This document shows positions 42,407 through 49,556 of a stretch of DNA of 64,000 nt, piece by piece. This stretch comes from Janthinobacterium agaricidamnosum NBRC 102515 = DSM 9628 (lineage in GTDB: Bacteria > Pseudomonadota > Gammaproteobacteria > Burkholderiales > Burkholderiaceae_D), in assembly GCF_000723165.1 (NCBI RefSeq), contig NZ_HG322949.1, positions 4,611,258-4,675,257 on the forward strand, written 5' to 3'. The translations under genes were made by a program, and so were the position numbers. Positions within the stretch are counted from its first letter, which is position 1; every line of letters starts with the position of its first letter. The notes beneath the pieces are model-generated. The model had not been told where the DNA came from, ran no database searches, and saw only the letters and a list, made by a program, of their open reading frames with translations.

Positions 42407-42492
42407 GGCCAAACAGCCGTTCGCCTTGTCTGGCGACGCCGCCGGCCGTTTTCAATCTAGTCACCCGTGCTGTTCCATCTGGAGTTTTGAAT

Positions 42493-45147
42493 ATGATCAG
42501 AGAAATACCGCTATCCCGCTCGATCCGCATCATCTGCGCCGCAGGCCTCGGCTTGCTGGCCTTGCCGGTGCTGGCCCAGGAAGCCGCGCCTGAAACGGTG
42601 CAACGCGTCGAAATCACCGGGTCGTCGATCAAACGGCTGGTATCGGAAACCGCCAATCCGCTCACCGTCTTCAAGGCGGAAGAATTCGCCAAGCAAGGCT
42701 TGACGACGGCGCAGGAAGTACTCAGCAAGATTCCATCGAATGCATCGAGCCTGGGCAGCGGCAACGCGGTCGGCGGCAATACCAGCGGCTTGCCGACCGG
42801 CGGCCAGGCCAGCGCCGACTTGCGCGGCCTGGGCGGCGACAAAACCCTGGTCCTGCTGAATGGCCGGCGCATCGCCAACCATCCATACGACGGCGCCAGC
42901 GTCGACTTGAACATCATCCCGATTTCCGCGCTGGACCGGGTCGAAGTGCTGCGCGACGGCGCCTCGGCGATCTACGGCACCGACGCGATCGGCGGCGTGA
43001 TCAACTTCATCACCAAGCGCTCGATCAATGTCACCAATATCACCGCCGAACTGATAACACCGGAACACAAGGGCGGCGCCGAGCAGCGCATCAACCTGTC
43101 GTCCGGCTTCGGCAAGCTCGATACCCAGGGCTACAACATCTTCGGCGTGCTCGATTATCACAAGCAAGGCGTGCTGACTTCGCAAGACCGCGATTTCTCG
43201 AAAACCGGCATCATCCCGAACCGCGGCCTGGCCTTGACCAGCGGCACCACCTTCCCCGGTAATTATTTCGATCCAGGTTCAGGCGTCACCGGCAATCCGG
43301 GTTTCGCCAGCGGTTGCAACCCGCCGCTGTCGGTGCCGGGAAACGGCACTTGCCGCCAGGATTACACGCGCCAGATCGACGATTTGCCGAAGCAGGAACA
43401 ATTGGCATTCTTCGGCAAGGGCGCCTTCAAGCTTGGCGACGGCCACCTGGCCACCGTCGAGTATTTGCACTCCGAGAACAAGGTCCAGTCGCGCACCGCG
43501 CCCCCGCCGCAAATCGAACTGGTGCTGCCGAATACCAGCAAGTATTACCCGGGTAATCCTGGCGGCGGCGTGCCGGCCCAGGCCGGCCTGTCGGGCCAGC
43601 CATTGATCGTCAACTGGCGCCCGACCGAGGCGGGGCAACGGCAAATCGATTCGAAAGGCACGGCCGACCGGCTGGTGCTGGCGCTGGAAGGCGAACTGGC
43701 CGGCTGGGACTATAAAACCGGCCTGACCTATTCGATCAGCAAATCGGCGGAAAACTTTACCGGCGGTTATGTGCAAGACGCATCGTTCGCGGCCGGCGTG
43801 CGCAACGGCATCCTCAATCCATTCGCCGCGCAAGACGCGGCCGGCGCCGCCTACCTGGCCAGCACCGCATTGCGTGGCGAGGTGCAAAACGCCAAGGTCA
43901 CCACCACCGGTTTCGATATCAAGGGCAGCCGCGAATTGACGCAACTGGCCGGCGGCCCGCTGGCGATCGCGCTGGGCGGCGAATTGCGCCATGAAAAAGC
44001 CGCCTTCAACGTCAACCGCGATATCGCCAGCCAGGCCACCAGTTCCGGCCTGTCCGGCTCGCAGTCGAAAGACGGTTCGCGCAATATCGAAGCGGTGTTC
44101 GGCGAAGTCAACTTGCCGCTGATTAAGGACCTGGAAGTCAACCTGGCGGTGCGTTTCGATAACTACAGCGACGTCGGCAATACCACCAACCCGAAACTGG
44201 GCGTGCGTTACCAGGCCAGCAAACAAGTCGTGCTGCGCGGTTCGGCCAGCACCGGCTTCCGCGCGCCGACGCTGTTTGAAAAAAATGCGCCGCCATCGAA
44301 AAACGATACCAACGATAGCTACGACGATCCGATCCTGTGCCCGGGCGGCAAGCCGACGCCGGCCGCCAATCCGCTGCGCGATTGCGATTTGCAGCAATTC
44401 AAGCTGCAAGGCGGCAATGCCAACCTGAAACCGGAAAAATCGAAAACCTTCGCCTTCGGCGTGGTGCTGGAACCGATCCCGGAAATCACCGTGGCGCTCG
44501 ATTACTGGAATATCCATTTGAAGGACAAGATCGCCGCGTTGCCGGAACAATCGATCTACGGCAACTATGAGAAATACAAGGCCTTGTTCTTGCGCAATCC
44601 GGACGGTTCGCCGTACGCGATCCTGGACTTGAACGACAACCTGGGCGAGGTCAAGACCGACGGTATCGATGTCAGCTTGAATGCACGTTTGCCGCGCACC
44701 AATGGTTACGGCGACTTCAGCCTGTCGGTGGATGGCACTTATGTCCACAAATACGATTACCAGAACGAGCGCGATGGCGCATTCATCAGCAACGTCGGAC
44801 GTTACGCCGATAATAATCCAGTGTTCCGCTGGAAACATACGGCGGCGCTGAACTGGCGCCTGGGCAATTGGGGCGCGACCGTGTCGCAAACCTATAAGTC
44901 GCGCTATACCGACCAGAACAATGTCGATGCGCAATACCAGCACGATGTGTCGTCGTACAGCTTGTGGAATCTGTCGGGCAGCTACACCGGCTTCAAGGGC
45001 GTGCTGGTGACGGCGGGTGTCAAGAACCTGTTCGACAAGGAACCGCCATTCTCCAACCAGGGCTCGCTGTTCCAGAAGGGTTACGATCCGCGCTACACCG
45101 ACCCGGTCGGCCGCGCGTTCTACCTGCGCGGCAGCTACACGTTTTAA
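42493..45147 (+). CDS. TonB-dependent receptor (second of the group)
   Basis: ATG at 42493 follows GGAG by eight bases; an upstream TTG at 42487 is unlikely. The 884-residue protein has a signal peptide (IREIPLSRSIRIICAAGLG, cleavage after LPVLAQ), TonB-box-like VQRVEITGS, a plug with LRGLGGDKTLVLLNGRR and VLRDGASAIYGTDAIGGVIN, and a barrel ending RGSYTF. It is more distant from the two neighbouring receptors than they are from each other. The leader words GGAGTTTTGA before the start are shared with the receptor at 39335, suggesting common origin of the 5' region. Substrate unknown. Confidence 0.91.
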   Translation: MIREIPLSRSIRIICAAGLGLLALPVLAQEAAPETVQRVEITGSSIKRLVSETANPLTVFKAEEFAKQGLTTAQEVLSKIPSNASSLGSGNAVGGNTSGLPTGGQASADLRGLGGDKTLVLLNGRRIANHPYDGASVDLNIIPISALDRVEVLRDGASAIYGTDAIGGVINFITKRSINVTNITAELITPEHKGGAEQRINLSSGFGKLDTQGYNIFGVLDYHKQGVLTSQDRDFSKTGIIPNRGLALTSGTTFPGNYFDPGSGVTGNPGFASGCNPPLSVPGNGTCRQDYTRQIDDLPKQEQLAFFGKGAFKLGDGHLATVEYLHSENKVQSRTAPPPQIELVLPNTSKYYPGNPGGGVPAQAGLSGQPLIVNWRPTEAGQRQIDSKGTADRLVLALEGELAGWDYKTGLTYSISKSAENFTGGYVQDASFAAGVRNGILNPFAAQDAAGAAYLASTALRGEVQNAKVTTTGFDIKGSRELTQLAGGPLAIALGGELRHEKAAFNVNRDIASQATSSGLSGSQSKDGSRNIEAVFGEVNLPLIKDLEVNLAVRFDNYSDVGNTTNPKLGVRYQASKQVVLRGSASTGFRAPTLFEKNAPPSKNDTNDSYDDPILCPGGKPTPAANPLRDCDLQQFKLQGGNANLKPEKSKTFAFGVVLEPIPEITVALDYWNIHLKDKIAALPEQSIYGNYEKYKALFLRNPDGSPYAILDLNDNLGEVKTDGIDVSLNARLPRTNGYGDFSLSVDGTYVHKYDYQNERDGAFISNVGRYADNNPVFRWKHTAALNWRLGNWGATVSQTYKSRYTDQNNVDAQYQHDVSSYSLWNLSGSYTGFKGVLVTAGVKNLFDKEPPFSNQGSLFQKGYDPRYTDPVGRAFYLRGSYTF

Positions 45148-45162
45148 TTTAAAACGCGCTTG

Positions 45163-45200
45163 AAAAACCGCCGCCGGCAGCGATGCCGGCGGCGGTTTTT
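45163..45200. terminator. Bidirectional terminator between a receptor gene and aroG
   Basis: AAAAACCGCCGCCGGCA (45163-45179) pairs perfectly with TGCCGGCGGCGGTTTTT (45184-45200) around a GCGA loop; T tracts occur on both strands. It serves the convergent receptor and aroG genes. Confidence 0.93.
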
Positions 45201-46315: not shown

Positions 46316-46346
46316 AAAAAAAAACCGCCATCGCTGGCGGTTTTTT
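46316..46346 (-). terminator. Attenuator terminator in the aroG leader
   Basis: On the minus strand AAAAAACCGCCA-GCGA-TGGCGGTTTTTT (46346 down to 46319) forms a compact stem followed by T residues to 46316. It is 42 bases upstream of aroG and downstream of the aroG promoter, thus inside the leader RNA. Its 5' arm ACCGCC (46341-46336) is complementary to GGCGGT in the last codons of the leader frame (46403-46398), so an antiterminator can form instead. Confidence 0.82.
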
Positions 46347-46390
46347 AGAATTTGCTGGGATCTCGCTATTGCTGCTACGTGAACCGGCCG

Positions 46391-46459
46391 CTACTCCACC
46401 GCCTTTGGGTTGGAATTGCTAAAGTAAAAATAGCTGGTAAAAAACGCGGAGCGTAACAT
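46391..46459 (-). CDS. Phe/Tyr-rich leader peptide of aroG (22 residues)
   Basis: This frame starts with ATG at 46459, roughly 28 bases after the predicted transcription start, and ends with TAG at 46391. It codes for MLRSAFFTSYFYFSN plus seven further residues: Phe at 6, 7, 11 and 13 and Tyr at 10 and 12, so six of eight consecutive codons in the region 6-13 are aromatic. A weak GGA-type ribosome site lies ten bases upstream. Leader peptides rich in the regulated amino acid are the classical sensor of ribosome-mediated attenuation (as in pheA or trp leaders). A stalled ribosome at 10-13 would leave the downstream GGCGGT free to pair with the terminator arm and so permit aroG transcription. 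Function is inferred; a 22-codon frame by itself could be chance, but position, content and pairing agree. Confidence 0.75.
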   Translation of the reverse strand: MLRSAFFTSYFYFSNSNPKAVE

Positions 46460-46493
46460 GCAGAAAATCCAATAAATGTGTGACTGTTGGATG

Positions 46494-46523
46494 ACTATAA
46501 CAACAATCGGCCACGCTTGGCAA
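46494..46523 (-). promoter_or_regulatory. Sigma70 promoter of the aroG leader transcript
   Basis: On the minus strand TTGCCA (46523-46518) and TATAGT (46499-46494) are separated by 18 bases; each matches five of six consensus positions. Transcription should begin near 46487, just upstream of the leader peptide. Confidence 0.7.
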
Positions 46524-46700: not shown

Positions 46701-49556
46701 ATGACTGAAACACTGTTGTCGCGCATGCGTTATACCGTTGCCGGAGCCGGCATCCTGCTGGCGCTTCCCGCGCAGGCGCAAGCGCAGGAAGGCAGTCCGC
46801 AAGTGGTGCCGCGGGTTGAAATTACCGGCTCCAACATCCGCCGCGCGCAAGCCGAGACGGCGTCGCCGGTACAAACCCTGAGCGCGGCCGACATCGAAAA
46901 ATCGGGCAAGACCAGCGTCGCCGAATTACTGCAGACGCTGGCGGTTGATAACCAGGGTTCGGTACCCAGCAACTTCGGCAACGGTTTTGCCGCCGGCGCG
47001 GCCGGCGTGTCGCTGCGCGGGCTGGGCGCCGCGTCGACGCTGGTGCTGCTGAACGGCCGCCGGGTCGCGCCGTACGGCCTGGCCGACGATGGCCAGAAAG
47101 TGTTTTCCGACCTGAACATCATTCCGCTCGAAGCGGTGGAGCGGGTCGAAATCCTCAAGGACGGCGCGTCGGCGATCTACGGTTCCGATGCGATCGCCGG
47201 CGTGGTCAACGTCATCTTGCGCAAGGATTACCAGGGCACCGCCATCAAGGCCAGCTACGGCAAGTCGCGCTACCGGGACGGGCGCGATAGCCGGGTGTCG
47301 CTGACCCATGGTTTCGGCGACCTCGACAACGACCGCTACAACCTGCTGCTGAATCTCGAATACGGCGAAAAACGCGAAATCTGGAACCACGACCGCGACG
47401 GCCGCGGCGCGATCGGCCGCGGCGCGATCGGCCGCGCCGACTTGCGCGACCAGGGTTTCAGCGCCGTCGAGGCGCTCGGCGGCACCGGCGCCATCACCAC
47501 CAATAACGCGGCCGGCAACGCCATCAACGGCAATGTGCGCAATCCCGCCACCTTCGATTATTACAACCGCGGCAACCTGGCCGGGACCGGCTTCACGCGC
47601 CAGTTTCCCGCCGCGGCCTGCGGCAACTTCACCGGCCACCCGCAAGGCGATCCGGGCGGCGGCTGCCTGATCGATGCGCAACAAATCTATAGCCAGATCC
47701 AGCCGCAACAAAAAACCGTCAACTTCTTCGGCCGCGGCGCGTACCAGATCAACCCCGGCCTGCAGACTTATGCCGAACTGAATCTGTACCACAGCGATAC
47801 GCACTCCGCCACCACGCCGTCGAGCGTCAGCGGCTCGGTCGGTTCGCCGGCTGGTCCGGTCAGCAATGCCGGCGCGGCGCTGGGCGCGGATCATCCGGAC
47901 AATCCGTATTTCGGCACGGCGGCGCGGCTGCGCTACCTGGCGGCCGATGTCGGCCCGCGCGTGTCCGACATCGAATCGACCTTCGTGCGGCTGGTGGCCG
48001 GTATCAAGGGCAGCGTGGCCGGATGGGACATCGACAGCGCGCTGCTGTATTCGCAAAACAAGATCAGCCACGATCAAACCGGCTATTTGCAGCGCAACGT
48101 CGCGTTCGCGCTGCTCAATCCGACGCCGGCCAATGTCGCCGCCGCCCAGCTGAATCCGGCCTACGCGGCGCTGCCGCCGGGCAGCGTGTGGCGCATCGCC
48201 GAAAACGCCGGCCTGAATTCGGCCGCGCTGTATGCCGCGCTGTCGCCGCAACTGTCGAACGACGCCAGAACCCGCCTGTCGCAAATCGACTTCAAGGCCA
48301 GCCGCGAATTGAACCAGTTGCCGGGCGGTGCGCTGGGTCTCGCGCTGGGCGCCGAATTTCGCCATGAAACCACCGAGCTGGGACCGACGCCAGGCACGGA
48401 AACCGGCAACATCATCGGCCTCGGCTACTCCGCCTACAAAGGCAACCGCAACTCGTCGGCGCTGTATGCGGAATTGCTGGCGCCGGTGCTGAAAACGCTG
48501 GAATTGTCGGCCGCGCTGCGCGCCGACCATTTTTCCGATGTCGGCAATTCCTACACGCCGAAGATCGGCGCCAAATGGACGCCGCTGCGCGAGCTGGCGC
48601 TGCGCACCACTTTCGCCAAGGGTTTCCGCGCGCCCAGCGCGGCGGAAAACGGCGTCGGCGGACTGGCGGCGTTTTCCACCGCCGCCGATCCGCTGCGCTG
48701 CGCACTGGGCGTCGCGGCGGCGTGCGACCCGGCCTCGATCGCGGTGATCACGTCGCCCAATCCCGCCTTGCAGCCGGAACGTTCGAAAAGCTATTCGGCG
48801 GGACTGATCTGGGACCCGCGCCCGCGCAGCAGCGTATCGCTGGATGTGTGGGAAATCAGGCGCACCAATGAAATCAACCAGGAGCAGACCGACGCCGCGA
48901 TCGCCGCCGGCCATATCGCGCGCGATCCCAGCACCGCCACCGCCATCCCCGGCGATCCGGGCGCGATCACGGCGGTGCTGGCCAATTACGTCAATTCGGC
49001 CAGCACCAAGGTGCGCGGCGCCGACCTCGATGCGCGCCAGGGCTTTGCGCTGGGGAACGGATGGGGCAACCTGACCTTCGACCTGAAATGGACCCATCTG
49101 TTCAAATGGCTGCGCACCGAACAGGATGGCAGCCAGCGCGACTTTGCCGGCACCCACGGCAATTGCGACGTGACCAACTGCATCGGCACGCCGGATGACC
49201 GGGTCAACCTCGGCGCGACATGGGAACGCAACGACTGGCGCGTGTCGGCGCTGGCCAATTACCGGGGTTCGCTCAGCAACACCGCCTTCAAGGATGACCC
49301 GGACGGCTGCGCCAGCCATTTTGCCGACGGCAGCGATGCGCCGCGCGGCTGCAAAATTGCGTCGTTCACCACCATCGACCTGACCTTGCGCTGGAAGGCG
49401 GCGCCGCGCATCGAAGTGTTCGGCTCGATCCAGAACCTGTTCGACAAGATCGCGCCGCTCGATCCGCTGACCTATGGCGCGGTGTCGTACAATCCGCTCG
49501 ACTACAGCGGCGCGGTGGGGCGTTATTTCAGCGCAGGCATGCGCTACAAGTTTTAA
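46701..49556 (+). CDS. TonB-dependent receptor (third of the group)
   Basis: The 951-residue protein starts at 46701 with AGGAG upstream. It has a short signal peptide ending QAQAQ, TonB-box-like VPRVEITGS, a plug with LRGLGAASTLVLLNGRRVAP and ILKDGASAIYGSDAIAGVVN, and a barrel ending MRYKF. It is a clear paralogue of the receptor at 39335: both share FGNGFAAG in the plug, HGNCD...CAGTP/CIGTP-like pairs in a late loop, and an almost identical IAPLDPLTYG segment near the C-terminus. An in-frame 15-base tandem duplication lies at 47400-47429. Substrate unknown; the cysteine pairs suggest disulfide-bearing surface loops. Confidence 0.91.
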   Translation: MTETLLSRMRYTVAGAGILLALPAQAQAQEGSPQVVPRVEITGSNIRRAQAETASPVQTLSAADIEKSGKTSVAELLQTLAVDNQGSVPSNFGNGFAAGAAGVSLRGLGAASTLVLLNGRRVAPYGLADDGQKVFSDLNIIPLEAVERVEILKDGASAIYGSDAIAGVVNVILRKDYQGTAIKASYGKSRYRDGRDSRVSLTHGFGDLDNDRYNLLLNLEYGEKREIWNHDRDGRGAIGRGAIGRADLRDQGFSAVEALGGTGAITTNNAAGNAINGNVRNPATFDYYNRGNLAGTGFTRQFPAAACGNFTGHPQGDPGGGCLIDAQQIYSQIQPQQKTVNFFGRGAYQINPGLQTYAELNLYHSDTHSATTPSSVSGSVGSPAGPVSNAGAALGADHPDNPYFGTAARLRYLAADVGPRVSDIESTFVRLVAGIKGSVAGWDIDSALLYSQNKISHDQTGYLQRNVAFALLNPTPANVAAAQLNPAYAALPPGSVWRIAENAGLNSAALYAALSPQLSNDARTRLSQIDFKASRELNQLPGGALGLALGAEFRHETTELGPTPGTETGNIIGLGYSAYKGNRNSSALYAELLAPVLKTLELSAALRADHFSDVGNSYTPKIGAKWTPLRELALRTTFAKGFRAPSAAENGVGGLAAFSTAADPLRCALGVAAACDPASIAVITSPNPALQPERSKSYSAGLIWDPRPRSSVSLDVWEIRRTNEINQEQTDAAIAAGHIARDPSTATAIPGDPGAITAVLANYVNSASTKVRGADLDARQGFALGNGWGNLTFDLKWTHLFKWLRTEQDGSQRDFAGTHGNCDVTNCIGTPDDRVNLGATWERNDWRVSALANYRGSLSNTAFKDDPDGCASHFADGSDAPRGCKIASFTTIDLTLRWKAAPRIEVFGSIQNLFDKIAPLDPLTYGAVSYNPLDYSGAVGRYFSAGMRYKF
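47400..47436 (+). repeat. In-frame 15-base tandem repeat within the receptor gene
   Basis: GGCCGCGGCGCGATC occurs at 47400-47414 and 47415-47429, followed by a partial third copy (47430-47436). It codes for repeated GRGAI in an extracellular-loop part of the barrel and is probably a slippage product. Confidence 0.7.

Follow-up and report, generated by a model that had tools for sequence, protein, structure and literature searches.

A putative ribosome-mediated attenuator with a phenylalanine- and tyrosine-rich leader peptide upstream of aroG in Janthinobacterium agaricidamnosum and other Proteobacteria

The leader of the Escherichia coli pheA gene contains Phe codons and follows the scheme of alternative 1:2, 2:3, and 3:4 pairings, and an attenuator of the Corynebacterium glutamicum aroR-aroF genes was reportedly described by Neshat et al. 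in 2014. For C. glutamicum, attenuation by ribosome stalling at a Phe-Tyr-Phe leader peptide is described (PMC11802643, PMC4046766), with an effect of Phe limitation on aroF and, as far as the available text of the first source goes, none of Tyr availability. A further motif (uORFC-13-1) precedes aroF in 24 representatives from Acholeplasma and environmental sequences, and its frame encodes at least one Phe residue (PMC8632094). In gammaproteobacterial lineages TyrR and TrpR regulons were described or reconstructed (excerpts of PMC5343134). Overall, leader attenuation is a textbook mechanism and a DAHP synthase attenuator is already known in Corynebacterium; a leader before aroG in Proteobacteria was not found described in a literature search, and the survey of Vitreschak et al. 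2004 may list some.

The leader analyzed here resembles the C. glutamicum aroR-aroF leader (a likeness of description, not of sequence comparison) in that an aromatic leader precedes a DAHP synthase gene. It differs from the leader of this actinobacterium, as far as the latter is described in the sources, by a longer aromatic cluster, by Trp in many relatives, and by its presence in three classes of Proteobacteria. With uORFC-13-1, as outlined in PMC8632094, it shares a short frame with a Phe codon and a terminator before a DAHP synthase gene. The E. coli pheA leader (Rfam RF01859, Phe_leader) shares the Phe-codon leader and the 1:2, 2:3, 3:4 scheme but belongs to a different gene. The RF01859 model scored 20.5 bits on the correct strand of the window, below its gathering score of 55; no Rfam family reached its threshold in the window, and nine loci searched at the gathering threshold gave no match to any family. 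Sub-threshold names for the window (rimP, RNAI, Leu_leader, and others) were disregarded. The enteric DAHP synthases share the pathway step and the end-product logic but are controlled by the DNA-binding TyrR and TrpR and not by an RNA leader (portions of PMC5343134 and PMC11878033). The original prediction had drawn the same contrast, which is in line with the available text of PMC5343134, and the one named enteric locus in our sample (Pantoea, L272) was scored without a leader.

The window is the whole stretch of 64,000 nucleotides from J. agaricidamnosum NBRC 102515 = DSM 9628 that was analyzed. Its aroG gene was identified by the NCBIfam AroG equivalog model (582.4 bits, cut-off 568) and by Pfam DAHP_synth_1. 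The original prediction placed a promoter, a 22-codon frame, a GGCGGT word and a terminator with nine T residues in this order upstream of the gene, and both its coordinates and its codon numbers are right (table 1).

Table 1. Features of the aroG locus, in positions of the window
Feature	Positions	Strand	Description
Sigma70-like promoter	46523-46494	-	TTGCCA-18-TATAGT; consensus match alone, 10/12 positions, TG before the second hexamer
Leader peptide frame	46459-46391	-	MLRSAFFTSYFYFSNSNPKAVE; 22 codons, ATG 46459, TAG 46391, stop included
Segment 1	46449-46436	-	contains Phe6 and Phe7; partner by folding 46400-46384
Segment 2 word (antiterminator strand)	46403-46398	-	GGCGGT; leader codons 19-21
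Segment 3	46341-46336	-	ACCGCC; terminator 5' arm, also partner of segment 2
Intrinsic terminator (3:4)	46346-46316	-	AAAAAACCGCCA-gcga-TGGCGGTTTTTT at 46346-46319
Terminator T run	46324-46316	-	nine T; 42 nt before aroG
aroG	46273-45212	-	type I DAHP synthase, 353 aa; ATG 46273, GGAG 46283-46280
Terminator-like hairpin	45163-45200	listed as +	17 pairs; between aroG and the convergent gene

The leader frame of the window contains six aromatic residues (Phe6, Phe7, Tyr10, Phe11, Tyr12, and Phe13) and no Trp. Promoter-like words are also visible by eye 5' of the leader in many relatives, and a promoter scan listed no further promoter-like site between 46316 and aroG. The leader folds at -47.9 kcal/mol compared with -37.6 +/- 3.85 kcal/mol for dinucleotide shuffles (z -2.68), a value that 1 out of 200 shuffles reached. 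Folding displays the leader terminator whereas a simple terminator scan of the window did not list it, we think because the T run begins inside the stem. The aroG gene is flanked by two long frames, one convergent (42487-45147, plus strand) and one divergent (46701-49556, plus strand), which by eye both resemble TonB-dependent receptors.

A total of 318 DAHP synthase loci were gathered for the analysis of conservation. A leader was defined as a terminator (6 of 9 T in the first scoring round, 5 of 9 T in later rounds) combined with a frame in which Phe, Tyr, or Trp make up at least four of ten codons, and was found at 213 of the 318 loci. Counts per set take in 317 of the 318 loci (L282 left out): a leader precedes aroG at all 32 loci examined in the genus (32 of 39 genus genomes), at 75 out of 81 loci examined in other genera of the family (out of 180 other family genomes), at 29 out of 74 loci in the rest of the order (45 were scored without), at 57 out of the 80 named loci (the top 80 among at least 588 matches), and at 20 of 41 loci from other classes. 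The sets are non-random samples, to which the phylum-wide search contributed only part of its matches, and they overlap partly, as named loci may be species that are present elsewhere without names. The counts are low rather than high, since the automatic choice of terminator or frame failed at at least nine loci where a leader is visible by eye (L049, L125, L131, L206, L209, where the frame differs, L214, L221, L283, and L299). Two other loci were L040, with only three aromatic codons in ten, and L065, which lies at a contig end. One of the two outcomes named as refuting the original prediction was that relatives do not keep the leader frame or its aromatic codons; both are conserved, the opposite of that outcome.

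The leader is also present in Burkholderia-type betaproteobacteria, Xanthomonas-type gammaproteobacteria, and Bradyrhizobium-type alphaproteobacteria. Named carriers identified by the definition above include Janthinobacterium, Rugamonas, Massilia, Noviherbaspirillum, Herminiimonas, Paraburkholderia, Caballeronia, Cupriavidus, Xanthomonas, Pseudoxanthomonas, Dyella, Rhodanobacter, Bradyrhizobium, Mesorhizobium, and Devosia; Trinickia and Bordetella genomosp. 2 are carriers by eye. The named loci scored without a leader include Undibacterium, Thauera, Azoarcus, Rhodocyclus, Methylotenera, and Pantoea, and inspection of one Undibacterium locus (L220) by eye revealed no such leader. At several loci (L070, L077, L082, L090, L095, and others) the end of another frame (TVGGT-like, by eye) lies upstream of aroG and there is no leader; at L131 and L206 the same type of frame end lies farther upstream, with the leader in between. 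None of nine second DAHP synthase copies carries a leader, including both others of the window's genome (L179 and L180), and the idea that the same leader serves other DAHP synthases was rejected on these nine copies. One member of the genus contains a second aroG copy (G017:C123:50454-51506) that is 84% identical.

The composition of the leader peptide was analyzed in 166 distinct leaders, chosen by the aromatic criterion so that the presence of aromatic residues as such is by construction. Their best ten-codon windows contain 638 Phe, 347 Tyr, and 72 Trp codons, with Phe encoded by TTT (477) and TTC (161), Tyr by TAC (197) and TAT (150), and Trp by TGG (72). Tyr occurs in 159 out of 166 distinct leaders, Trp in 70, and all three amino acids in 66. 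As both Phe codons and both Tyr codons are used and the Trp codon TGG joins the cluster, the conserved property is apparently the kind of amino acid and not the letters or a T run. In the Xanthomonas leader L233 (MNANRSFYFWYYGFPMPLAEEGVRSP) and the Bradyrhizobium leader L244 (MITVATSYFWYFSYDSSLAAGGSRSI) Phe, Trp, and Tyr stand side by side, and some leaders within the family also have Trp in the cluster (e.g., L072, L127, and L129). The peptide that follows the aromatic cluster varies between families while the GGCGG word persists in nearly all leaders, and the stop codon lies -5 to 25 nt from the segment 2 word in 94% of 164 distinct word-bearing leaders. Four distinct leaders (L086, L093, L115, and L258) start with GTG. 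In L003, which belongs to the same genus, an additional C behind the aromatic cluster causes a frameshift, resulting in a leader of 38 codons that ends at the terminator; the extra C could be real or a sequencing error.

The pairings were examined in an alignment (A2) of 50 diverse leaders out of 51 chosen (L049 was dropped) and in sets of distinct cores, and relatedness among the leaders remains in all shuffle, permutation, and swap controls. The terminator stem consists of 93.9% standard pairs with a covariation of 0.156 compared with 0.092 in shuffled alignments (0 out of 500 as high), and its score drops when the stem is slid by one to three columns. The 2:3 helix displays 74.3% standard pairs and a covariation of 0.055 compared with 0.032 (1 out of 500 as high); four of its pairs changed on both sides, a count that 107 out of 500 shuffles reach. 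The GGCGG/CCGCC core is nearly invariant and therefore gives no covariation information. At its edges, the base that precedes GGCGG and the one that follows CCGCC (p-1:a+1) form a Watson-Crick pair in 66 of 127 distinct cores compared with 47.8 +/- 3.6 when permuted, and the base after GGCGG and the base before CCGCC do so in 76 of 127 compared with 64.6 +/- 2.9; pair q+2:b-2 displays no covariation among the same 127 cores, and in the window itself p-1:a+1 is a mismatch of two A residues. Among 161 distinct cases, the duplex that a leader's own segments 2 and 3 form is at -14.74 compared with -14.01 +/- 0.13 for permuted partners (0 out of 5000 as low). The GGCGGT/ACCGCC pairing and the terminator stem, which the original prediction regarded as mutually exclusive, both covary at their variable edges.

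Folding of the window's leader further suggests a helix between segment 1 and a partner that overlaps the GGCGGT word and the stop codon (table 1). This predicted 1:2 helix is absent from the original prediction and completes the classical attenuator scheme. Among 185 leaders, the own 1:2 duplex is at -23.2 kcal/mol compared with -20.5 kcal/mol for swapped partners (25 drawn from the set), and the own duplex is more stable than the swapped mean in 77% of the leaders and not in the other 23%. The features of an attenuator that were found are a frame with aromatic codons, a terminator between frame and gene, an antiterminator that excludes the terminator, and, by folding and spacing, a 1:2 helix over the control codons with the stop near segment 2.

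A covariance model built for the RNA element (R1) was used to search 200 genomes of the order, some of which supplied sequences for building the model. In the 49 genomes with the strongest hits (E 7.9e-22 to 7.1e-7) all of these hits lie directly upstream of an aroG-type gene, as determined by inspection of 30 loci and three stretches and by coordinates for the others. The next hit (genome G322, 8.0e-7) consists of a frame MVTFSVVYNVYFYWYRSSGGAKGC and a terminator before an unknown 204-aa frame; this locus (L369, G322:C20:48227-48352, minus strand) has YFYWY in its frame and a GGCGG/CCGCC terminator and does not precede aroG. Among the weaker hits that were checked, one (G622, 9.4e-6) lies upstream of aroG and three (G286, G617, and G005) do not. 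The overall tally of 123 out of 200 genomes includes many terminator-only matches with E up to 0.01 and is not a count of carriers. In the window's genome the element scored 91.2 bits and the next place 28.7 bits, the latter with the terminator end only, and the pattern GGCGG-gap-CCGCC-gap-GGCGGTTTTT occurs in two places, the element and a G+C-rich stretch at 5016706.

The presence of the leader was mapped onto a quick AroG tree (FastTree) of 168 loci, in which leader presence was assigned manually to L040, L049, and L283, the visible leaders of L206, L209, L214, and L221 were scored absent, and L125, L131, and L299 were not included. The leader changes 16 times on the tree compared with 34.4 times with shuffled labels (0 out of 500 as low), indicating that the leader largely tracks the gene; the tree does not separate gain of the leader from its loss or transfer.

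Based on its parts, their conservation, and the covariation, the element is very probably a ribosome-mediated transcription attenuator of aroG that responds to aromatic aminoacyl-tRNA. Ribosome-mediated attenuation was the reading of the original prediction, and the conserved frame and codons together with the covarying exclusive pairings support it. The aroG leader is proposed to work like the pheA, trp, and his attenuators. When charged tRNA-Phe and tRNA-Tyr are plentiful, the ribosome would reach the leader stop codon at the end of segment 2 and occupy this segment, and the 3:4 terminator would halt RNA polymerase before aroG. Under a shortage of charged tRNA, the ribosome would stall at the Phe and Tyr codons and open the 1:2 helix, and the freed segment 2 would pair with segment 3 before segment 4 is made, allowing transcription to continue into aroG. 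The transcription start, the translation of the frame, the stalling, the direction and size of the response, and the relative weight of Phe and Tyr are inferred.

Two models of a ribosome in place were used for folding. In the stricter model the RNA 5' of the ribosome is free to pair and the fold is taken before segment 4 is made; the 2:3 helix of the window then has a probability of 0.89 when the ribosome stalls at Phe6 and 0.93 when it stalls at Phe7, and of 0.00 both in the absence of a ribosome and with the ribosome at the stop codon. Stalls at codons 10-13 give 0.00-0.12 in this model and the 5' RNA pairs with the segment 2 region. The looser model keeps all RNA 5' of the ribosome unpaired and works with a wider segment 2; the probability in the window is then 0.99-1.00 at every aromatic stall (1.00 for codons 10-13) and 0.74 at the stop codon. 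Over 48 leaders, one of which (L049) was scored on a wrong frame, aromatic stalls average 0.98 and stalls at codon 2 average 0.92, compared with 0.48 for a ribosome at the stop codon and 0.43 with none. In the full transcript of the window the 3:4 pairing has a probability of 1.00 in all eight conditions. The terminator thus always wins in the finished transcript, and antitermination must be kinetic, as in the textbook case. The folds fit an antiterminator that depends on stalling; they vary with the model and do not single out the decisive codon.

The leader would sense both Phe and Tyr under the proposed attenuation, and in some lineages Trp may be sensed as well, given the Trp codons in 70 of the 166 distinct leaders. 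It is conceivable, at a tentative level, that Phe alone is the signal and the Tyr codons are passengers, which is a sub-case of the attenuator and no alternative to it. The codons within the window's 1:2 helix are Phe6 and Phe7, stalls at these two codons and not at codons 10-13 free segment 2 in the stricter model, and the Phe-Tyr-Phe leader of Corynebacterium aroF responds to Phe and, in the available text of PMC11802643, not to Tyr. The frequency of Tyr in the criterion-selected leaders, where it often alternates with Phe, argues against passengers.

A plain terminator in the 5' UTR that sets a fixed low level of aroG or yields a trans-acting small RNA, with the Phe-rich frame as a by-product of composition, is very unlikely. 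The window's leader is indeed T-rich, and shuffles of this stretch reached a best frame with six aromatic codons in ten in 8 out of 2000 cases; a trans action of attenuator RNAs also has a precedent in rnTrpL of Sinorhizobium (as described in part of PMC10117765). Composition does not account for a cluster that, in the criterion-chosen leaders, uses both codons of Phe and of Tyr and accepts TGG, nor a plain terminator for antiterminator edges that covary alongside the terminator. It is hardly credible that stalling is caused by the sequence of the nascent leader peptide or by a small molecule bound to it (as in tnaC) and not by uncharged tRNA: the C-terminal half (SNSNPKAVE in the genus) is near-constant among close relatives but differs outside the family (PLADREG, PLAEEGVRSP, and SSLAAGGSRSI), and the one-base insertion in L003 alters the C-terminal frame. 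Since the C-terminal peptide varies while the GGCGG word stays, it seems to be RNA pairing that is constrained there. Chance as the origin of the leader, which the window sequence by itself makes only moderately unlikely, is ruled out by the conservation upstream of aroG in the genus and the family.

The mixture of Phe and Tyr codons, with Trp in places, permits a clear test of whether an attenuator of aroG integrates several amino acids or reads one. The leader offers points of intervention for strains of Burkholderiales and rhizobia that produce aromatics, and the covariance model could be used to annotate the aroG leader in many genomes. DAHP synthase guards the entry to the shikimate pathway, and the control of its expression outside the enteric bacteria is little described in the literature that was searched. 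On balance we lean slightly towards the view that the leader represents an old family of RNA switches, tied to one type of AroG in the alpha-, beta-, and gammaproteobacteria, that would sense Phe-, Tyr-, and often Trp-aminoacyl-tRNAs and thereby gauge, at the first step of the common pathway, the total demand placed on it; the lineage of the window would have kept Phe and Tyr only, and TyrR and TrpR would replace the switch in enteric bacteria.
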